NCBI RefSeq assembly: GCF_000830005.1
Contig: NZ_CP010407.1
Span: 4,383,001-4,447,000, forward strand
Direction: 5' to 3'
Length of the DNA: 64,000 bases
From: Streptomyces vietnamensis
GTDB taxonomy: Bacteria > Actinomycetota > Actinomycetes > Streptomycetales > Streptomycetaceae
Shown: in pieces, positions 45,683 through 63,071 of the stretch
How the letters are laid out: every line of letters begins with the position of its first letter
Position numbering within the stretch: the first letter of the stretch is position 1
Program-made: the position numbers and the translations under genes
Notes under the pieces: generated by a model
The model's input: only the letters and a program-made list of their open reading frames with translations
What the model was told of the DNA's origin: nothing
Databases searched by the model: none

Positions 45683-45798
45683 AACGTCGAAGGGCCCCAC
45701 CGCGAACGGTGGGGCCCTTCGACAACGTGCCCGGTGAGGCACTGGCGGAGGATACGAGATTCGAACTCGTGAGGGGTTGCCCCCAACACGCTTTCCAA
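45683..45798. repeat. attL: attL: 116-bp direct repeat with tRNA-Ser 3' fragment
   Basis: Identical to 62924-63039. It holds a 17-bp-arm terminator hairpin (45686-45723) and the tRNA-Ser(GGA) 3' part from CCA back into the anticodon loop (45743-45798). Identity ends in the anticodon stem, after CTTTCCAA. It is the chromosomal 3' end left behind when the element inserted. Confidence 0.92.
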
Positions 45799-45838
45799 CT
45801 GTCCGCTCCACCGTTCGCGGACATTCGCAGGTGTTCGC

Positions 45839-45972: not shown

Positions 45973-48900
45973 TCACTGTGGCTTCTCGTGGTCTTCTGCG
46001 AGGGTCTCGGAGGCGGGAACGGCCGTCACGGTTGCTGTACTCGGTTCCTGCAAGGCTTCGACCAAACCGCGGATGATGGTGGTGATCTCGCGAGTGGCAT
46101 GGGTGTGAGGGTGGTCTGGGCCGAGGAGGCGTTCGCGGTCGGCCAGTACTCGCTCGCATAGTTCCAGGGCTTCCTGGATGCGTCCGACATCGGTGTAGGA
46201 GACGGCCAGGTTGTTGCGGGCGCTAAGGGTGTCGGGGTGGTCTGGGCCGAGGAGGCGTTCGCGGTCGGCCAGTACTCGCTCGCGTAGTTCCAGGGCTTCC
46301 TGGTTGCGCCCGGACTTGATGTAGGAGACGGCCAGGTTGCTGCGGGCGCTAAGGGTGTCGGGGTGGTCCGGGCCGAGGAGGCGTTCGCGGTCGGCCAGTA
46401 CTCGCTCGCGTAGTTCCAGGGCTTCCTGGTTGCGCCCGGACTTGGTGTAGGAGTTGGCCAGGTTGTTGCGGGCGCTAAGGGTGTCGGGGTGGTCCGGGCC
46501 GAGGAGGCGTTCGCGGTCGGCCAGTACTCGCTCGCGTAGTTCCAGGGCTTCCTGGTTGCGCCCGGACTTGGTGTAGGAGTTGGCCAGGTTGCTGCGGGCG
46601 CCAAGGGTGTCGGGGTGGTCCGGGCCGAGGAGGCGTTCGCGGTCGGCCAGTACCCGTTTTTTCAGCTGCAGGGCTTCCTGGATGCGCCCGACATCGGTGT
46701 AGGAGCTGGCCAGGTTGCTGCGGGCCGTGAGGGTGTCGGGGTGGTCCGGGCCGAGGAGGCGTTCGCGGTCGGCCAGTACCCGTTCTTCCAGCTGCAGGGC
46801 TTCCTGGATGCGTCCGGCCTCGGTGTAGGAGACGGCCAGGTTGCTGCGGGCCGTGAGGGTGTCGGGGTGGTCCGGGCCGAGGAGGCGTTCGCGGTCGGCC
46901 AGTACCCGTTCTTCCAGCTGCAGGGCTTCCTGGATGCGCCCGACATCGGTGTAGGAGACGGCCAGGTTGCTGCGGGCCGTGAGGGTGTCGGGGTGGTCCG
47001 GGCCGAGGAGGCGTTCGCGGTCGGCCAGTACCCGTTCATCCAGCTGCAGGGCTTCCTGGATGCGTCCGGCCTCGGTGTAGGAGACGGCCAGGTTGCTGCG
47101 GGCCGTGAGGGTGTCGGGGTGGTCCGGGCCGAGGAGGCGTTCGCGGTCGCCCAGGACTCGCTCGTGCAGTTCCAGGGCTTCCTGGTTGCGCCCGGCCTCG
47201 GTGTAGGAGTTGGCCAGGTTGCTGCGGGCCGTGAGGGTGTCGGGGTGGTCCGGGCCGAGTGAGCCTTCGAAGTCGGCCAGTACTCGCTCGCGTAGTTCCA
47301 GGGCTTCCTGGATGCGTCCGACATCGGTGTAGGAGTTGGCCAGGTTGCTGCGGGTGCCAAGGGTGTCGGGGTGGTCCGGGCCGAGGAGGCGTTCGCGGTC
47401 GGCCAGGACTCGCTCGTGCAGTTCCAGGGCTTCCTGGTTGCGCCCGGCCTCGGTGTAGGAGTTGGCCAGGTTGCTGCGGGCCGTGAGGGTGTCGGGGTGG
47501 TCCGGGCCGAGTGAGCCTTCGAAGTCGGCCAGTACTCGCTCGCGTAGTTCCAGGGCTTCCTGGATGCGTCCGACATCGGTGTAGGAGTTGGCCAGGTTGC
47601 TGCGGGTGCCAAGGGTGTCGGGGTGGTCCGGGCCGAGGAGGCGTTCGCGGTCGGCCAGGACTCGCTCGTGCAGTTCCAGGGCTTCCTGGATGCGTCCGAC
47701 ATCGGTGTAGGAGTTGGCCAGGTTGCTGCGGGTGCCAAGGGTGTCGGGGTGGTCTGGGCCGAGGAGGCGTTCGCGGTCGGCCAGTACTCGCTCGCGTAGT
47801 TCCAGGGCTTCCTGGATGCGTCCGGCATTGGTGTAGGAGTTGGCCAGGTTGCTGCGGGTGCCAAGGGTGTCGGGGTGGTCCGGACCGTGGTGGTCGGTGC
47901 TGCGCTGAACAACGCTTTGGTCGTATTCGACGGCTTGCTCGTACAGGCCTACTGCGGTCAGACTGCGGCTGACTCGGTACACGCATGTGTGCGTGGTGGG
48001 CTGCCACAGCAATGGGTATGTGTGCTGATCCAGCAGCATGGTGTTCACACGCAGGGTCGCGGAGAGGTCTCGGTCCTGGTGGTCGATGTCGGGCCACAGG
48101 CTGAGAATCGCATCGCCCGCGGTACGGGCGATCGGGGGGAGCGCCTGGTGCTTGATTGTCTCGCGCACGGCCCGTGCTGTCAGGGCGTGCATACGGATCG
48201 GTGCCTGGACGCTGTCCTGTGCAACGAGCGCGTAGGTGCGCAGGCAGTCCAGCGCGGAGTGGATTTCCTCTTCGGTGACGGCCAGTTGCCGTCTGCGCAG
48301 CCAACGACGGCGGGACGGTCGCGATGTGCGTAGGTAGTTTTGCGCCGGTGGCGTGGTCCACAGAGCTGCAGGGTGTCCGAGTGGGTCCACCAAAGCGATG
48401 AGCTGGAGCAGCGTCTGGGCCAGTTGAGTGGTGTCGGAGGCTTGGACGGCGTCTAGGGAGAGCAGAAGCGCCGTGGTGACGGGCCGGCCGTAGCCTTCGG
48501 TGTCTGCCTCCGGTGGGAGAAGGTCGGCGAGTTTGCTGTCCGTTGCCTGGAAGCCGGTGAGGTACGTGCCGACGTCGCACCGCTTGTTAATCATGTAGGC
48601 GGCGGCGTGGCCGAGAGCGAGCGGCAACAGACCCAGAGCCTGGGACAATTCACCTGCGGGACCGTCCTCGAAGAGCTGGGGATGCCCGGCGTCGGACAGA
48701 CGGCGGTGCAGGTAGGCCGTCGCCTCTGTGGGAGTGTAGAGATCAAGGTGGATCAGGCGGCGGCCCTGGCCACTCAGCAGGGCGTCCCTGCGTCTGGTTG
48801 TGGCCAGGACACGGCCGTTGCGGGGGTTGCCGTCCGGCCACCACGCATCGACGGCCACTGGGTCGGTGATGTCGTCGAGCACCACTAGCCACCGCCGGTT

Positions 48901-49374
48901 GGTGGCCGATAGCCAGGCCAGGAACGCCCGTGCGGCGGTGGCATCGTCTGCGCTGCCAGCAAGCCGCAGCTGCTCGGCAGCCTCGGCGTAGGCAGTGATG
49001 ATCTGGTCGGGCTCCGTGGCGCTGACCCACAAGAGCAGGTCAAGCCCGCTGTCCTGCCCTCGGTCCTCATCGCGCAGTTCCCGCGCCAGTGCGGCGGCGA
49101 GCTGGCTCTTGCCGACCCCACCGTCCCCTGCCAGGACCTGCGACAGCACCGGTTTACCCTCACCCTGCTCGCTGCGGGACCGGTGAAGGGACGACCAGGC
49201 CACTGCGCGTGGTTGGAATGCCGCCGCGAGCCTAGGAACGTTGCCCACCCAGACCGGCCAGGAGACCTCCGGCGCCCGCGGAGGCGGCACCTGAACATGC
49301 ACGTCGGTCGTGATCTGCGTGACGTCCCTGCCCGCGCGGGCACGCTGCTGCGTCTGCTTCCGCCCCAGCCCCAC
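45973..49374 (-). CDS. STAND ATPase: N-terminal short motif, NB-ARC, fourteen TPR units (NLR-like)
   Basis: 1133 residues from a GTG at 49374 with AGGGGGAT upstream. Residues 9-24 (QQRARAGRDVTQITTD) form a short motif before the ATPase. The NB-ARC domain has Walker A GDGGVGKS (83-90), Walker B LVVLDDI (163-169), RVLATTRR (about 189-196) and LGLLPLALGHAAAYM. Residues 497-1084 are fourteen 42-residue TPR units (GPDHPDTLxxRxNLAxSYxxxGRxQEALEL), followed by a 49-residue tail. STAND proteins of this type oligomerise on sensing a ligand; several are anti-phage sensors. It has no effector domain of its own. It lies 24 bp after a small membrane-protein gene on the same strand. Cargo of the AICE. Confidence 0.88.
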   Translation of the reverse strand: MGLGRKQTQQRARAGRDVTQITTDVHVQVPPPRAPEVSWPVWVGNVPRLAAAFQPRAVAWSSLHRSRSEQGEGKPVLSQVLAGDGGVGKSQLAAALARELRDEDRGQDSGLDLLLWVSATEPDQIITAYAEAAEQLRLAGSADDATAARAFLAWLSATNRRWLVVLDDITDPVAVDAWWPDGNPRNGRVLATTRRRDALLSGQGRRLIHLDLYTPTEATAYLHRRLSDAGHPQLFEDGPAGELSQALGLLPLALGHAAAYMINKRCDVGTYLTGFQATDSKLADLLPPEADTEGYGRPVTTALLLSLDAVQASDTTQLAQTLLQLIALVDPLGHPAALWTTPPAQNYLRTSRPSRRRWLRRRQLAVTEEEIHSALDCLRTYALVAQDSVQAPIRMHALTARAVRETIKHQALPPIARTAGDAILSLWPDIDHQDRDLSATLRVNTMLLDQHTYPLLWQPTTHTCVYRVSRSLTAVGLYEQAVEYDQSVVQRSTDHHGPDHPDTLGTRSNLANSYTNAGRIQEALELRERVLADRERLLGPDHPDTLGTRSNLANSYTDVGRIQEALELHERVLADRERLLGPDHPDTLGTRSNLANSYTDVGRIQEALELRERVLADFEGSLGPDHPDTLTARSNLANSYTEAGRNQEALELHERVLADRERLLGPDHPDTLGTRSNLANSYTDVGRIQEALELRERVLADFEGSLGPDHPDTLTARSNLANSYTEAGRNQEALELHERVLGDRERLLGPDHPDTLTARSNLAVSYTEAGRIQEALQLDERVLADRERLLGPDHPDTLTARSNLAVSYTDVGRIQEALQLEERVLADRERLLGPDHPDTLTARSNLAVSYTEAGRIQEALQLEERVLADRERLLGPDHPDTLTARSNLASSYTDVGRIQEALQLKKRVLADRERLLGPDHPDTLGARSNLANSYTKSGRNQEALELRERVLADRERLLGPDHPDTLSARNNLANSYTKSGRNQEALELRERVLADRERLLGPDHPDTLSARSNLAVSYIKSGRNQEALELRERVLADRERLLGPDHPDTLSARNNLAVSYTDVGRIQEALELCERVLADRERLLGPDHPHTHATREITTIIRGLVEALQEPSTATVTAVPASETLAEDHEKPQ
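46123..47886 (-). repeat. fourteen tandem 126-bp repeats encoding TPR units
   Basis: The interval is exactly 14 x 126 bp inside the NB-ARC/TPR gene. Units are nearly identical at the DNA level, including silent positions. Units 3-4 and 5-6 are a duplicated 252-bp block differing by one residue (Ala/Gly in RVLxDRERLL). Such an array is expected to change copy number by recombination. Confidence 0.93.
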
Positions 49375-49398
49375 TGGATCCCCCTGCGTTCTGGTTGG

Positions 49399-49767
49399 TC
49401 AGGACCGGTCGCCAGCGACCTGGTCCACGTCGCCCCCGCCGCGCGCCTTCTGCCGGATGCTCTCCCGCAGCGGACGACGCCCCGACCGTGCCGACGAGCC
49501 GTGGCTGCCAGCGGTCTGCTTGACCTTGCCCTTCGTACGCGCCGACTGCCGCACCCGGCGCACCGGTCCACCCCCGCCGGGCGCAGACGCCTGGGAGGCC
49601 CACCAGCCAAGAGCGGCCAGCACGCCGGCCGCGACCACCCCCGCGACCGGGCCGATCACATCCCAAGGGTCGTTCCCACCCGGAGACAACACAGCCCATG
49701 GCACCGCGACGGCGAAAAACGCCACCACTGAGGCCACCACCGCCAGCACCCACCGCAGCGCTGCCAT
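49399..49767 (-). CDS. small two-helix membrane protein with C-terminal motif matching the NB-ARC protein
   Basis: 122 residues from the ATG at 49767, chosen because GGAGGGG lies directly upstream. Two membrane helices (about 5-27 and 37-57) are joined by a short loop (SPGGNDPWD). The basic tail (RRVRQSARTKGKVKQTAGS) ends with RQKARGGGDVDQVAGD (105-120). That ending aligns without gaps to residues 9-24 of the NB-ARC/TPR protein encoded 24 bp downstream: 8 of 16 identical, 3 more similar. Short motifs shared between an effector C-terminus and an NLR N-terminus are the pattern of bacterial amyloid signalling, so this is a candidate membrane-acting effector. The function is inferred, not shown. 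Confidence 0.7.
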   Translation of the reverse strand: MAALRWVLAVVASVVAFFAVAVPWAVLSPGGNDPWDVIGPVAGVVAAGVLAALGWWASQASAPGGGGPVRRVRQSARTKGKVKQTAGSHGSSARSGRRPLRESIRQKARGGGDVDQVAGDRS

Positions 49768-49961: not shown

Positions 49962-50537
49962 TCAGGTGGGGGGAATCCTGGCATCTAGGGCCCTGGTGAC
50001 GTTCGCGGGATCACCGTCGTACCGCACATGTGGTTCATCTGCTTGAGGAGGGACGAAGCGGGTGCGGTATCGCTGAAGGTCACTCTCGGAGAAGTAGATC
50101 GAGTTGGGGTCGTTAGCGTGAAATGCGTTTCGCCTACTGATCCGCTCCCACAGCTCCGCATGGCTTGCCGCAAGGTAGACAAGCACAGGGGCCGCTCCGG
50201 CATCCGTAGCGATCGCTCGCCACTTCGCACGGTCCTCCGGAGTCCAGAACCCGTGGTCGACGACGACGCTGTGTCCAGCCTTGAGGTGGTTCCTGAGCTC
50301 GATCGCCACATCCGCGAGCACCGGCTGTTCAAGAACAGGGAAGACGCCTCGTGGGAAGTCCACCCCGTACACGCCGTGCCTGCGGAACATCTCCTCATCT
50401 GGGCAAAGTCGCACGAACCCGCGCGCGGTAAGAGTGCGCGAGAGTGTGGTCTTCCCAGAGCCAGGCAGGCCGGCCATGAGGACACAGACCGGCGGCTTTG
50501 GCGGCACGTTCGTCATGGTGTCGTCCATGCCGCTCAC
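49962..50537 (-). CDS. P-loop kinase-like ATPase (AAA_33 type)
   Basis: 191 residues from a GTG at 50537: GGAGG lies 8 bp upstream and the GTGA overlaps the GntR stop. Walker A is MAGLPGSGKTTLSRTL (about 18-33). VVVDHGFWTPEDRAKWR and VLVYLAASHAELWERISRRNAF give the remaining nucleoside/polynucleotide kinase-like features, including a lid-like Arg pair. The group includes zeta-toxin and aminoglycoside-phosphotransferase-like small-molecule kinases; the substrate is unknown. Translational coupling to the GntR regulator suggests a role in controlling, or signalling to, the element. pSAM2 has a Nudix gene (pif) in its regulatory region instead. Confidence 0.82.
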   Translation of the reverse strand: MSGMDDTMTNVPPKPPVCVLMAGLPGSGKTTLSRTLTARGFVRLCPDEEMFRRHGVYGVDFPRGVFPVLEQPVLADVAIELRNHLKAGHSVVVDHGFWTPEDRAKWRAIATDAGAAPVLVYLAASHAELWERISRRNAFHANDPNSIYFSESDLQRYRTRFVPPQADEPHVRYDGDPANVTRALDARIPPT

Positions 50538-51292
50538 GACGAGACCTCCGATTCTGTTCGCCACGTCCGGCCGGGCCCTCCAAGGTCTACGCCGTACTCC
50601 ACGATGTTGCCCTCGCTATCGATGAACTTCGCGGTCATGACGACCACTGGCTCCGCAGGCGGGTTTTCGGGATCCAGTTCCAGCAGGCGCGCGTACTCCG
50701 CTGTCAGCGGGGAGGCGGACGCGGTGTCGATTCGGTGGCTGATCGGGTGGCCTGTCGCCTGGGCGATGAGCTGAAGGGAGGTTCCCCCCGTCAGCCGCTC
50801 ACTCGTCGCAAGCTGAGGAATCATCCGGCCGTACCGAGCGGGAATCCATGACGTGCTGTGGGCGACGATGCCGTGCCGGTCCCGATACACGCGGCTCCGG
50901 CGGACCACTTCGGTGCCCGGCTGGATGTCCAGCGCTTGCGCCACATCAGCAGGCGCCGGCACCACAGATGCCTGATGTGAATCAGACCTCTCGCCATCCC
51001 CCCAGCTGGACCCGGTGCGGCGCCCCCGGTCCTGCCGTTGGGATCCGGAGGACATGGGGGCGGGCTGGTCGAGGACCTCCGTGCCGATGCCATGGATGCC
51101 TCGGACGAGTCCTTCGTTGCGTAGCTTCCGCAGAGCCTTCTCAGCCGTAGCAGTGCTTACCTTCCACTCCTCCGAGAGGTTCTTGATGCTCGGCAGGAGA
51201 GTGCCCGGCTGGAGCTGACCGGACGCGATCAGCTCGGCGTAGTGGGCGGCAATCCTTGCGTAGGGCGCCCGATTATCGGCCTGACCTGCCAT
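50534..51292 (-). CDS. GntR/HutC-family regulator (KorSA-like)
   Basis: 252 residues. The N-terminal winged helix is IAAHYAELIASGQLQPGTLLPSIKNLSEEWKVSTATAEKALRKLRNEGLVRGIHGIGTEVL (about 13-73). The C-terminal UTRA effector domain (VVRRSRVYRDRHGIVAHSTSWIPARYGRMIPQL) spans about 110-245. In pSAM2 the GntR protein KorSA represses transfer and replication genes; this gene has the same place, divergent from the transfer operon. The repeated AGGGAACC boxes at 51323-51375 are its probable binding sites. Confidence 0.87.
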   Translation of the reverse strand: MAGQADNRAPYARIAAHYAELIASGQLQPGTLLPSIKNLSEEWKVSTATAEKALRKLRNEGLVRGIHGIGTEVLDQPAPMSSGSQRQDRGRRTGSSWGDGERSDSHQASVVPAPADVAQALDIQPGTEVVRRSRVYRDRHGIVAHSTSWIPARYGRMIPQLATSERLTGGTSLQLIAQATGHPISHRIDTASASPLTAEYARLLELDPENPPAEPVVVMTAKFIDSEGNIVEYGVDLGGPGRTWRTESEVSS

Positions 51293-54656: not shown

Positions 54657-56735
54657 ATGACCGAGACGCCCGTGGCCGCGCACCTGCGGCCGGTGCCCGA
54701 CATAGACCGCGACGACGAGACGCCCACCGCCCCGATGCCGGTGGACAACCCGAACCTGCCCGACCCGAAGGTGACGATCGAGAAGCGCAAGCCGGTCCTC
54801 GCCGGATGGCTCACCAACCGCCATGACTTCCTCGCCACCGCCCGCCACACCGGCGCGAACGTCGGCTACGCCGCCCTGTACCACGGGGTGCGGGTGCCGG
54901 TATATGCCGGACGCCTGGCGCTGATGTCGCCGCGGGGAGCGTGCCGGTTCGTCGCCTCCACCAACCGGTGGGTGTGGGACCGGGAGGCCGCTCCGCTGCG
55001 GGACTACGCGGTGCGGACCGAGGACGTGGAGGAGTACATGCGGCTGGCCAAGCTGCGCGCCGGACGGATCCGGCTGCGCGGTCTGGTCACCCTCGTGTCC
55101 CTCGTGTTCGGCGCCTCCTTCGCCCTGTGGCTGTACGTCGTCGCCCCCGCCTACCTGTTCCTCTTCGCCACCGGCGGGGTGCTGCTGCTGGGGATGGGCG
55201 GGCAGCAGCCCGACTCCCCGGTCGTCGGCCCGGCCGTACTGAAGACCGAGATCCAAAAGCTCACCGGCTCGATCGTGCTGCGCGGTCTGGACTCGATCGG
55301 CAACGCGAAGATCTCCGCCGCCATCAAGAAGGGCGGCGACATGAACGGCCTGCGGTTCACCAGCGAGATCGTGCGCGACGGGCCCGGCTACCGCGCCGAC
55401 CTCGACCTGCCCTACGGCGTCACGCCCGAGGACATCATGGAGGCGCGCAAGCCCCTCGCCTCCGGCCTGCGCCGCAAGGTCGGCTGCGTCTGGCCCGCCC
55501 CCGACCCCACCGAGCACGAGGGACGACTGGTGCTGTGGGTGGGGGACAAGCCGATGAACGAGACCACCAAGCCCGCCTGGCCGCTGCTGAAGACCGGCAG
55601 CGTGGACCTGTTCAAGCCGGTGGTGTTCGGCAACGACCAGCGCATGCGGGACGTCACGGTCACGCTCATGTTCGCGGCCGTCGTCGTCGGCTCCGTGCCC
55701 CGTATGGGCAAGACGTTCCTGATGCGGCTGCTCCTGCTCATCGCCGCCCTCGACCCCCGCGCGGAGATCCACGCGTTCGACTTCAAGGGCACCGGCGACT
55801 TCGGCGCCCTCGAACCCATCTGCCACCGCTACCGCGCCGGCGAGGAAGACGACGACATCGGCTACGTCGTCGAGTCGCTGCGGGAGCTGAAGGACGAGCT
55901 GCGACGCCGGGCGAAGGTCATCAAGTCCCTGCCGCGCTCGCGCTGCCCGGAGTCGAAGGTCACCCCCGCCCTCGCCGACGACAAGTCCCTCGGGCTGCAC
56001 CCGATCGTGGTCGGGTTCGACGAGTGCCAGGTGCCCTTCGAGCACGCCGAACACGGCGCGGAGATCGAGGCGATCTGCACCGACCTGGTCAAACGCGGCC
56101 CCGCCCTGGGAATCGTGACCCTCTTCGGCACCCAGCGCCCCGACGCCAAGTCCCTGCCCACCGGCATCTCCGCGAACGCGATCCTCAGGTTCTGCCTGAA
56201 GGTCATGGGCCAGCCCGCCAACGACATGGTGCTGGGCACCTCGATGTACAAGTCGGGATACCGGGCCACCATGTTCTCCCGCTCCGACCGGGGCATCTGC
56301 TGGATGGCCGGCGAGGGCGACGACCCCCGCATCGTCGCCTCCGCGTTCGTCGACGCCGTCGCCGCCGAACAGGTCGTCGCCCGCGCCCGCAAGGCCCGCG
56401 AGGAGTACGGCAACGTCACCGGCCACGCCATCGGCAAGGGCCCCGACAAGACCAGCGGCAACGACATCCTCGCCGACGTCCTCGACGTCATCCACGAGGG
56501 CGAGAAGGCCGTGTGGTGCGAGCGCATCGCCACCCGTCTGACCTCCCTCCGGCCCGACACCTATGCCGGGTGGAAGGGCGAGAACGTCACGGCCGCCCTC
56601 AAGCCGTACGGCATCAAGCCGGGCCAGGTCTGGGGCACCACCGACGACGGCAAGGGCGCCAACCGACGCGGCATCGACCGCACCGACATCACCGCCGCCC
56701 TCACACGCCGTAACGCCGACCGGGCCGCCGCCTGA
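54657..56735 (+). CDS. FtsK/SpoIIIE-type conjugative DNA translocase (TraB/TraSA-like)
   Basis: 692 residues. An N-terminal region of 130 residues precedes two membrane helices (about 143-180: LVTLVSLVFGASFALWLYVVAPAYLFLFATGGVLLLG). The motor domain has Walker A VPRMGKTFL (about 347-355) and Walker B PIVVGFDECQ (about 449-458), with TLFGTQRPDAKSLPTGI as the conserved sensor. The C-terminal 100 residues (WCERIATRLTSLRPDTYAGWKGENVTAALKPYGI) resemble a winged helix for recognising a DNA site. Streptomyces transfer double-stranded DNA with one such hexameric pump, so this is the transfer protein. Confidence 0.9.
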   Translation: MTETPVAAHLRPVPDIDRDDETPTAPMPVDNPNLPDPKVTIEKRKPVLAGWLTNRHDFLATARHTGANVGYAALYHGVRVPVYAGRLALMSPRGACRFVASTNRWVWDREAAPLRDYAVRTEDVEEYMRLAKLRAGRIRLRGLVTLVSLVFGASFALWLYVVAPAYLFLFATGGVLLLGMGGQQPDSPVVGPAVLKTEIQKLTGSIVLRGLDSIGNAKISAAIKKGGDMNGLRFTSEIVRDGPGYRADLDLPYGVTPEDIMEARKPLASGLRRKVGCVWPAPDPTEHEGRLVLWVGDKPMNETTKPAWPLLKTGSVDLFKPVVFGNDQRMRDVTVTLMFAAVVVGSVPRMGKTFLMRLLLLIAALDPRAEIHAFDFKGTGDFGALEPICHRYRAGEEDDDIGYVVESLRELKDELRRRAKVIKSLPRSRCPESKVTPALADDKSLGLHPIVVGFDECQVPFEHAEHGAEIEAICTDLVKRGPALGIVTLFGTQRPDAKSLPTGISANAILRFCLKVMGQPANDMVLGTSMYKSGYRATMFSRSDRGICWMAGEGDDPRIVASAFVDAVAAEQVVARARKAREEYGNVTGHAIGKGPDKTSGNDILADVLDVIHEGEKAVWCERIATRLTSLRPDTYAGWKGENVTAALKPYGIKPGQVWGTTDDGKGANRRGIDRTDITAALTRRNADRAAA

Positions 56736-61407: not shown

Positions 61408-61629
61408 ATGGACGCGTCCCTATCCGAAGTGACCGTTGACTCCACGCTCGTCTTGCTCACCGTCGAGGAGGCAGCTCGCCGTCTCCAGATCGGCCGGACC
61501 CTCTGCTACCGGTACATCGGCACCGGCGAGCTGGAGTCCGTACCGCTCGGCCGACTCCGCCGCGTCCCTGCCGACGCCGTCATCGCATTCGCCACCCAGC
61601 TCCGCCGCGCCCATCGGCCGGCCGCCTAA
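61408..61629 (+). CDS. xis: excisionase (MerR-like HTH)
   Basis: 73 residues. LVLLTVEEAARRLQIGRTLCYRYIGTGELESVPLGRLRRVPADAVIAFATQL is the excisionase/MerR-type winged HTH (helix, turn, then GRLRRVP wing). It works with the integrase to excise the element. It lies 10 bp upstream of int on the same strand, the standard AICE order. Confidence 0.88.
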   Translation: MDASLSEVTVDSTLVLLTVEEAARRLQIGRTLCYRYIGTGELESVPLGRLRRVPADAVIAFATQLRRAHRPAA

Positions 61630-61639
61630 GAGGATCACT

Positions 61640-62920
61640 GTGGAACGACAGAAGAAGCGCACCCGCCGGGCGAACGGCGAAACGGCCATCTACTTCGGTA
61701 AGGACGGTCGTTGGCACGCCCGAGTGCCGATGGGCTACAAGGACAACGGGGAGCCCTATCGCAGGCACATCACGCGCCCCACGGAAGACGCCCTGAAGGA
61801 TGAGGTCAAGCGGCGGGAGAAGCAGCGAGACCAGGGCACCGCACAGCAGCCCGGAAAGCTGTGGACCGTCGAGAAGTGGCTGTGTCACTGGGTCGAGAAC
61901 ATCGCCAAGGACGTCGTCAGCGAGAACACGTACGACGGTTACGAAGTGGCAGTGCGCGTGCACCTCGTTCCCGGCATTGGGAAGCACCGCATGGACCGCC
62001 TGGAGCCCGAGCACCTGGAAAGCCTGTACCGCCGGATGCAGAAGAACGGCAGTAAGCCCGCCACGGCTCACCAGGCCCACCGCACCGCTCGTACTGCGCT
62101 CGGAGAAGCCGTCCGTCGCGGCTACGCGGCGAAGAATGCCGCCGCCCTGGCCAAGCCGCCCCGGATGGAGGGCGACGAAGACGAGATCGAGCCCTACTCC
62201 GTCGAAGAGGTGCAGAGCCTACTGATCGCGGTGAACAAGCGTCGCAACAGCGCTCGCTGGATGCTCGCGCTCGCCCTCGGACTGCGCCAGGGCGAGACCC
62301 TCGGTCTGCGATGGTCTGACGTGGACTTGGACAACGAGTATCTGAAGCTGCGCCGGAACCGACTGCGGCCGAAGTACGCGCACGGATGCGCCGAAGCGTC
62401 GCCATGCGGTCGCAAGGCCGGGTACTGCCCCAAGCGCGAGCAGGTGCGGAGGGAGACCAAGAACACCAAGTCGCGGGCCGGCCGCCGGGCCGTTCCGCTG
62501 CCCGGTCCGCTGGTCGTGATGCTCCGTGCCCACAGGGAGGCGCAAGCCCTCGAACGGGCGAAGGCGGGGAACCTGTGGACACCGTCCGACTACGTCTTCA
62601 CCAAGCCCCTCGGTGGCCCGCTCAGCCCGAACACGGACTACCACGACTGGAAGAAGCTGCTGGGCGACGCGGGGGTGCGTGACGCGCGCCTGCACGATGC
62701 CCGGCACACGGCTGCCACCGTGCTCATGCTGCTCGGGGTCCCGGACCGCGTCATCGACCAGATCATGGGGTGGGAGCCGGGCACGTCCTCCCGGATGCGG
62801 GCGCGGTACCTCCACGTGCCGGACGCCATGCTGAAGGACGTGGCCCGGAAGATCGCTGAAGCGATCTGGGGGCCTCCGGAAAAGCTCCCTGTGGACAAAG
62901 ACCAGGACAACGAGGGCTGA
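61640..62920 (+). CDS. int: tyrosine-family site-specific integrase
   Basis: 426 residues from a GTG at 61640 with AGAGGAT upstream. It has an N-terminal arm-binding AP2-like part (ETAIYFGKDGRWHARVPMGYKD), a core-binding SAM-like domain (about 75-170) and a catalytic domain with Arg216 (LRQGE), His352-x-x-Arg355 (HDARH) and nucleophile Tyr390 (RYLHV); Trp378 takes the place of the second His. A Cys-rich insertion (HGCAEASPCGRKAGYCPKREQ, about 249-268) may bind zinc. The gene ends 3 bp before attR, and its last codons contain the 21-bp repeat found near attL. Inserts the element into tRNA-Ser(GGA). Confidence 0.94.
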   Translation: MERQKKRTRRANGETAIYFGKDGRWHARVPMGYKDNGEPYRRHITRPTEDALKDEVKRREKQRDQGTAQQPGKLWTVEKWLCHWVENIAKDVVSENTYDGYEVAVRVHLVPGIGKHRMDRLEPEHLESLYRRMQKNGSKPATAHQAHRTARTALGEAVRRGYAAKNAAALAKPPRMEGDEDEIEPYSVEEVQSLLIAVNKRRNSARWMLALALGLRQGETLGLRWSDVDLDNEYLKLRRNRLRPKYAHGCAEASPCGRKAGYCPKREQVRRETKNTKSRAGRRAVPLPGPLVVMLRAHREAQALERAKAGNLWTPSDYVFTKPLGGPLSPNTDYHDWKKLLGDAGVRDARLHDARHTAATVLMLLGVPDRVIDQIMGWEPGTSSRMRARYLHVPDAMLKDVARKIAEAIWGPPEKLPVDKDQDNEG

Positions 62921-62923
62921 GGC

Positions 62924-63039
62924 AACGTCGAAGGGCCCCACCGCGAACGGTGGGGCCCTTCGACAACGTGCCCGGTGAGGCACTGGCGGAGGATACGAGA
63001 TTCGAACTCGTGAGGGGTTGCCCCCAACACGCTTTCCAA
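62924..63039. repeat. attR: attR: 116-bp direct repeat
   Basis: Identical to 45683-45798. It is brought by the element and restores the 3' half of tRNA-Ser(GGA), so the tRNA stays functional. It includes the terminator hairpin at 62927-62964. Confidence 0.92.
62927..62964 (-). terminator. terminator of tRNA-Ser(GGA)
   Basis: Perfect 17-bp arms (gtcgaagggccccaccg and its complement) around CGAA. It lies 20 bp past the tRNA 3' end and is duplicated at 45686-45723. It also terminates int from the other side. Confidence 0.85.
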
Positions 63040-63071
63040 GCGTGCGCCCTAGGCCTCTAGGCGAATCCTCC
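62984..63071 (-). tRNA. tRNA-Ser(GGA), AICE integration site
   Basis: The minus strand gives acceptor GGAGGAT/ATCCTCC, D-arm TCGCCTAGAGGCCTAGGGC, anticodon stem CACGC/GCGTG with loop TTGGAAA (anticodon GGA, codons UCC/UCU), long variable arm, T-loop GTTCGAATC, discriminator G and an encoded CCA. The 3' part from the anticodon stem on is the AICE copy. Confidence 0.95.

Follow-up and report, generated by a model that had tools for sequence, protein, structure and literature searches.

The closest described systems are the BASS (BELL-NLR) amyloid signalosomes (Dyrka et al. 2020, J Mol Biol; as described in PMC7889193, PMC8086366, PMC12261475 and PMC9815663): a small effector adjoins a NOD-like receptor (NLR), a similar short motif stands at the effector C-terminus and the NLR N-terminus, the hosts are filamentous actinobacteria, several motif families occur, and one of the motifs, BASS4, is reported to be often repeated on the effector (PMC8086366). 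A locus of Streptomyces vietnamensis, lying in a stretch of 64,000 nucleotides (contig NZ_CP010407.1, positions 4,383,001 to 4,447,000; hereafter the window), resembles these systems in gene order, motif placement and host, and differs from them in its effector, a two-helix membrane hairpin; in its relatives, several tag types on one hairpin scaffold and joined hairpin-sensor forms are described here as well. We consider it fairly probable that the two genes encode a sensor-executioner pair connected by a short homotypic tag, in which clustered sensor tags would template the hairpin tags and the hairpins would then damage the membrane.

The pair consists of the following parts (window coordinates).

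49399..49767, minus strand: membrane hairpin effector, 122 residues (ATG at 49767), with two predicted membrane helices and two motif copies
49687..49764, minus strand: first predicted membrane helix, residues 2-27 (AlphaFold2; predicted local confidence, pLDDT, 70-87 by blocks of ten)
49588..49668, minus strand: second predicted membrane helix, residues 34-60 (AlphaFold2)
49507..49554, minus strand: motif copy R1 of the effector, residues 72-87, VRQSARTKGKVKQTAG (sequence match; AlphaFold2 strands 70-77 and 82-85)
49408..49455, minus strand: motif copy R2 of the effector, residues 105-120, RQKARGGGDVDQVAGD (sequence match; AlphaFold2 strands 102-109 and 114-117)
45973..49374, minus strand: NLR/STAND-type sensor, 1133 residues, GTG start, with N-terminal motif, NB-ARC domain and TPR array
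49303..49350, minus strand: motif copy N of the NLR, residues 9-24, QQRARAGRDVTQITTD (kept in the downstream NLRs of related loci)
48724..49134, minus strand: NB-ARC domain, residues 81-217, P-loop from residue 83 (domain scan)
45975..48038, minus strand: TPR array of 126-nt units (repeat analysis, domain scan)

Read from its N-terminus, the effector comprises two hydrophobic helices, R1, a linker, R2 and the stop codon; its description as a two-helix membrane protein comes from the sequence and from AlphaFold2 models of the window effector and one distant relative. The NLR gene lies downstream across an intergenic gap of 24 bp, and its product gives an NB-ARC match of 28.3 bits (cut-off 23.5) and 15 TPR_10 stretches in the domain scan. 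A preliminary description of this stretch, made from the sequence alone, had already named an NB-ARC/TPR protein beside the effector gene at that distance; the scan bears out the former, and the adjacency is both correct and a conserved unit in relatives. The likeness to the BASS layout, as PMC7889193 describes it, also holds. Fungal HET-S-type signalling likewise has a membrane-acting effector with two C-terminal motif pseudo-repeats and a receptor with the motif at its N-terminus (described in part in PMC7889193), whereas here no homology is claimed, a HeLo domain was not seen, and the sensor is of the NB-ARC/TPR kind.

The match between the effector tail and the NLR N-terminus, on which the preliminary description was built, is real: RQKARGGGDVDQVAGD (residues 105-120) aligns with QQRARAGRDVTQITTD (residues 9-24) as well as this in only 1 of 2000 shuffles. 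The best ungapped BLOSUM62 match between the effector tail and the first 60 residues of the NLR scores 47 (shuffle mean 22.2, standard deviation 4.0); it includes the claimed 16-residue stretch and extends four residues further left. When the whole effector is compared with the whole NLR, 0 of 100 shuffles are as good. That description was right about the C-terminal copy and overlooked a second, internal copy in the effector, VRQSARTKGKVKQTAG at residues 72-87, which scores 41 (3 of 2000 shuffles as good). Chance similarity of the tags is rejected by these shuffle tests and by the partner permutation over 45 pairs given below.

The pair recurs across Streptomycetaceae. Searching 5.8 billion proteins with the effector gave 118 rows at E ≤ 0.01, the window protein included; the rows with an organism name belong to Streptomyces, Kitasatospora or other Streptomycetaceae, which are multicellular (filamentous) bacteria, the habitat of BASS. 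The effector is matched in 21 of 297 family genomes at E ≤ 0.001, nine times strongly (E 1e-33 or better) and otherwise at 1e-6 to 1e-3, and the weak loci L022-L024, L026 and L028 are probably chance matches. Directly downstream of the effector, a P-loop sensor with the N-terminal motif is present at 16 of 16 named loci of the species-genome collection (gaps of -44 to +99 when the earliest possible start codon is assumed); the partner at L038 is a different P-loop protein of 1221 residues, which carries the motif, has no TPR matches and reaches 28.1 bits for AAA_16, below the cut-off of 32.6. With the first 50 residues of the window NLR as query, four matches were obtained, all of them NB-ARC/TPR proteins with a similar N-terminus. 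A phylum-wide search with distant effectors gave matches in 5 of 396 genomes, three of them in the same genus, the window's own genome included; the remaining two, weak and outside the family, were not hairpin-motif genes on inspection. At the sensitivity of the searches made, no effector relatives were found in viral contigs, plasmids or phages, and the motif profile and effector alignment matched no solved structure up to E 10.

A further search used a query free of the motif (A3), built from nothing but the hairpin part of 16 effectors that had themselves been found by whole-effector searches: in 394 family genomes it returned 54 rows in 47 genomes at E ≤ 0.001, of which 51 were examined and the three weakest (E 2.4e-4 to 2.9e-4) left out. 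The N-terminus of the neighbour carries the same tag class as the hairpin tail in 36 of the 51 (L163 among them weakly). The other examined rows comprise two tagged hairpins without a downstream partner, three joined proteins, six solo hairpins, three hairpins within longer proteins, and L133, where hairpin, tag and sensor are present in shifted frames. At L165, one of the two without a downstream partner, a tagged sensor stands upstream of the hairpin.

From 60 loci we assembled 45 effector-partner pairs, some of which are close relatives; L156 and L165 (no downstream partner), L129, L131 and L132 (joined), L133 (frames shifted), L127, L128, L130 and L167-L169 (hairpin without tag) and L135, L136 and L138 (hairpin in a longer protein) were left out. 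The hairpin scaffold carries five tag types in these pairs: the glutamine motif of the window locus in 35, GERSxAIGGDNxGxIxTGD in 5, IxMAGRD in 2, NRVAGxGAHDNxFGD in 2 and GNVAPHGKIYV in 1. Effector and partner agree in class in 44 of 45 pairs after hand correction, L163 being unassigned; the patterns themselves matched 42, L038 and L041 were corrected by hand (the pattern had taken TGN for the TGD class), and the patterns, that of the glutamine class being broad, were drawn up with the sequences already seen. The score of a tag with its own partner was reached in at most 5 of 500 shuffles in 41 of 45 pairs; over the 45 pairs the own-partner scores add up to 2599, where permuted partners give 1623 ± 74 (0 of 20000 permutations as high), and over the ten non-glutamine pairs they add up to 760 against 409 ± 66 (0 of 20000). 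The same permutation within the glutamine class alone gives 1839 against 1417 ± 60 (0 of 20000), and we do not count it as evidence of co-variation, because relatedness stays in it. L147, and with less certainty L149, has another residue in place of the first glutamine on both partners, as judged by eye.

The odd tag types sit on hairpins that appear related to that of the window. A query of whole glutamine-class effectors (A2), run before any odd type entered a query, reached E values of 5.5e-18 for GKIYV, 2.0e-17 and 1.9e-17 for the two hairpins of MAGRD type, and 1.7e-7 and 3.0e-7 for the two of FGD type; four of these five were then used as seeds of A3. A hairpin tree of 46 sequences (those of 43 among the 45 pairs, plus the three joined proteins; L030 and L032 were omitted for incomplete N-termini) places MAGRD, FGD and GKIYV among the glutamine-class hairpins, on a short alignment that leaves 19 of 43 forks open. 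Common descent of the TGD type with the other hairpins is likely, on weaker grounds. Two expectations set out in the preliminary description can be judged on these results: recurrence of adjacent sensors bearing the motif is seen at all 16 named loci, and other tag types, matched on related hairpins and their neighbours, come close to the co-variation asked for, while fine-scale co-variation in the main class is absent once relatedness is taken into account.

Across an alignment of 56 effectors, the positions without any variation include Q74 and Q84 in R1 and Q106 and Q116 in R2. The distance between the two glutamines is 10 in 110 R1 copies, 12 in 3 and 11 in 2, and 10 in 58 R2 copies, 12 in 56 and 16 in 1; it is thus even in 228 of 230 effector copies, a count of related sequences and not of events. 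For these counts ten rows were treated by hand: six R1 spacings were re-read (P0006, P0026, P0060, P0063, P0096, P0109), P0110 was added, and P0091, P0117 and P0118, which are truncated or broken, were dropped. As an even step keeps the inward or outward face of a strand, the spacing fits strands. AlphaFold2 models point the same way: for the window effector (56-row alignment) they place helices at 2-27 and 34-60 and strands at 70-77, 82-85, 102-109 and 114-117 (mean pLDDT 66, strand blocks 53-60), and for the distant effector L144 (21-row alignment) helices at 2-26 and 36-63 and strands at 76-83, 88-92, 111-118 and 123-127 (mean pLDDT 70, strand blocks 59-77). In both models each tag copy forms a single strand-turn-strand, and as evidence these strands are no more than suggestive.

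In three genomes (L129, L131, L132) the hairpin is the N-terminus of a single protein of 1323-1341 residues that contains a P-loop region and has no visible tag; A3 found these joined hairpins at 6e-10 to 6e-9. L129, the joined protein that was scanned, gives 192.9 bits for TPR_12 and 20.2 bits for NB-ARC, the latter below the cut-off of 23.5, and the window sensor from residue 19 onwards aligns with it at 31% identity over 1138 columns (E 3e-107). A joined hairpin in the place of the tag is what would be expected if the sole task of the tag were to bring hairpin and sensor together.

The preliminary description had suggested that the motif may be new, and a wider search speaks against this. 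A motif profile (A5) whose 19 input copies all came from hairpin pairs hits 43 of 101 family genomes at E ≤ 0.1, and the 30 loci that it returned include 8 hairpin loci and 22 others: 13 C-termini of another kind of protein, 3 STAND-like N-termini, 1 other two-helix protein and 5 that could not be interpreted. The 13 proteins are of the MDPELAALA... kind, are mostly 136-183 residues long, and in 12 cases have a tagged neighbour (by eye); we take them to be BELL-domain proteins. Because the profile also finds these BELL-like C-termini, the motif is probably no new class, the idea of a wholly new one was dropped, and the motif is probably one of the ten published BASS families (BASS1-10). The hairpin itself shows no likeness outside the motif to one such protein (the BELL label being our assumption), and the best alignment of a distant hairpin effector with the same protein falls in the motif (E 0.026). 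Neither the effector nor the BELL-like proteins themselves reach a cut-off in Pfam or NCBIfam. BELL is a helical bundle with a hydrophobic helix; the model of the effector has two helices only. The features that look new are the hairpin effector, the doubling of its tag, the range of tag types and the joined forms. No hairpin effector of this kind is named in the literature searched, which is not proof that none is in print, and the motif strings, searched as printed text, led to unrelated papers only.

At L165 (4000-7490) three consecutive genes encode a BELL-like effector with the motif, a P-loop sensor with the motif and a hairpin with two copies; as all three are tagged, one receptor may drive two executioners. 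At L194 (1087-1557) a seemingly unrelated two-helix protein ends in the same motif class and has a tagged partner beside it.

Our proposal for the mechanism, drawn from the domain classes of the two proteins, is that a trigger would bind the TPR array, the NB-ARC domain would oligomerise, and the N-terminal tags would thereby be brought together; the clustered tags would form a beta-arch template on which R1 and R2 of the hairpin fold and stack, probably in an amyloid-like manner; and the hairpins so gathered in the membrane would cause damage or depolarisation, stopping an infected or stressed hypha. More tentatively, and as a possibility that we rate somewhat below even, Streptomycetaceae may possess very small two-helix executioners that form a family distinct from BELL, wired by up to five dissimilar, exchangeable, self-stacking tags that match those of the neighbour, and able to dispense with the tag when hairpin and sensor are joined.

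Other explanations account for part of these data. The tag could be an ordinary non-polymerising dock (beta-augmentation or a coiled contact between one sensor and one hairpin), with the hairpin serving as a membrane anchor for the sensor and not as an executioner. Tag pairing and the other tag types show no more than that the tags go with each other; the hairpin is of small size, the three joined proteins would equally fit a membrane-anchored sensor, and the partners at L150, L155 and L157, having neither P-loop nor Pfam domain, need not be NLRs. Against a one-to-one dock stand the two tag copies of the effector facing one in the sensor, which fit repeat stacking better, as do the invariant glutamines of the 56 effectors, their even spacing and the presence of the same tag class on BELL-like effectors; we therefore regard docking as unlikely, though a serious competitor. 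Much less credit is due to the idea that the tags resemble each other merely as a legacy of common descent or through low-complexity drift, for example after fission of a joined gene, with no present function: relatedness does explain the matching within the main class, but five dissimilar tag types on one hairpin scaffold, in each case with the matching type on the neighbour, and glutamines invariant across 56 aligned effectors make this reading very improbable. The sensor might finally belong, as its TPR protein, to an FxSxx-COOH radical-SAM peptide system, with the membrane protein as a bystander, since the sensor scores 687.6 bits for NCBIfam FxSxx_TPR (NF040586; cut-off 300) and a near relative is so named in GenBank. 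We rejected this reading, which we hold to be barely credible: the whole genome has 0 matches to the FxsB radical-SAM protein at E 1e-10, none is present in the ten element open reading frames scanned, the constant neighbour is the hairpin, a different partner from that of the FxSxx-COOH system, and the TPR repeats probably supply much of the score.

Several observations weigh against the sensor-executioner proposal itself. Within the glutamine class, comparison of the own partner with that of the nearest related sensor gives the own partner 18 wins, 16 losses and one tie (p 0.43), and from relatedness a regression would expect an own score of 59 where 52.5 is observed; there is no fine co-variation beyond kinship within the main class, so that tags of the same class seem exchangeable for one another and it is the class-level matches that speak for coupling. 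The TGD-type hairpins are only distantly alike (A3, E 2.0e-6 to 1.0e-4), and on the hairpin tree the six labels need five changes, the least possible number. The L163 sensor lacks the second glutamine, though the effector copies retain it, and at L156 a tagged hairpin has no partner within 14.9 kb. Six hairpins are solo and without tag, and three lie in longer proteins without an adjacent NLR; in 6 of the 45 pairs (L137, L139, L140, L150, L155, L157) the partner has no P-loop. Confidence in the predicted strands is low (pLDDT about 53-77). No defence model was matched beyond TPR-type stretches and one weak DinG: with PADLOC 2023, the window effector gave no match and the NLR one match, to a TPR stretch, and among 8 related proteins six gave none, one a TPR-type match and one the weak DinG (16.5 bits).

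The partners without a P-loop deserve separate mention. A Pfam scan of four of them (L137, L150, L155, L157) found no domain, and all six carry the matching tag; the partner thus need not be an active NLR, and the tag may also link the hairpin to non-NLR proteins. The solo hairpins (L127, L128, L130, L167, L168, L169) are 72-91 residues long, have neither tag nor NLR, and may form a separate family.

If the sensor-executioner proposal is correct, bacterial amyloid-type signalling would not be bound to BELL and would work as a plug-in wiring code, in which a small hairpin could be coupled to different sensors by swapping a tag of about 20 residues. The tag types would then supply a natural set of candidate orthogonal pairs for asking which sequences template each other, and the joined and split forms would provide a direct test of whether the tag merely brings the effector to the clustered sensor.

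In the TPR array of the NLR, identity to the reference copy lies at 87-95% for 12 of the 14 other 300-nt copies and at 65% and 71% for the two at the ends; given the exact 126-nt spacing of the units and their mostly high identity, the array would have expanded recently. Sensors whose N-termini are 83-91% identical to that of the window NLR are 670, 882 and 921 residues long, which suggests that the number of repeats in the sensing part changes among relatives. The genome holds 20 NB-ARC matches at E ≤ 0.01, 17 of them above cut-off, and among these 20 proteins the motif was found only in the window NLR (by pattern and by eye, in at most the first 110 residues); the motif profile, run on the same genome at E ≤ 0.1, finds three copies, all at this locus.

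An element integrated at a tRNA-Ser gene carries the pair as cargo; the other features of this element are as follows.

45683..45806, no strand: att-like direct repeat of 124 bp that marks the left end of the element (98% identity with 62924-63047; repeat analysis)
62924..63047, no strand: second att-like direct repeat, at the opposite end of the element, which overlaps tRNA-Ser(GGA) at 62984-63071 (repeat and tRNA analysis)
61436..62920, plus strand: tyrosine integrase of the element (Phage_integrase, 71 bits)
50534..51292, minus strand: GntR/UTRA regulator of the element (domain scan)
54657..56735: putative transfer gene (by eye; no match in Pfam)

The 124-bp repeats bracket 17.2 kb that end at tRNA-Ser(GGA), with the integrase adjoining, and the effector/sensor pair is found just within the end that is distant from the integrase. 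Flanking att repeats at a tRNA gene together with an adjacent integrase are what cargo of an actinomycete integrative and conjugative element would be expected to show. The preliminary description's placing of the pair on a mobile element is accordingly sound for the window locus and does not extend to the family, as element genes lie near 4 of 44 other loci in the available flanks (GntR-like genes at L030, L035 and L037, an integrase at L162). Given that an integrated element carries the pair, its likeliest use would be in phage defence or in competition among mobile elements. Short membrane effectors of anti-phage systems are small two-helix membrane proteins under the control of a sensor, as here; they differ in that control in this pair would be exerted by a tag, not by a nucleotide messenger or a protease. 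Directly upstream of the effector and on the same strand, positions 49962-50564 of the window encode a P-loop kinase-like protein, which matches AAA_33 and, more weakly, zeta toxin.

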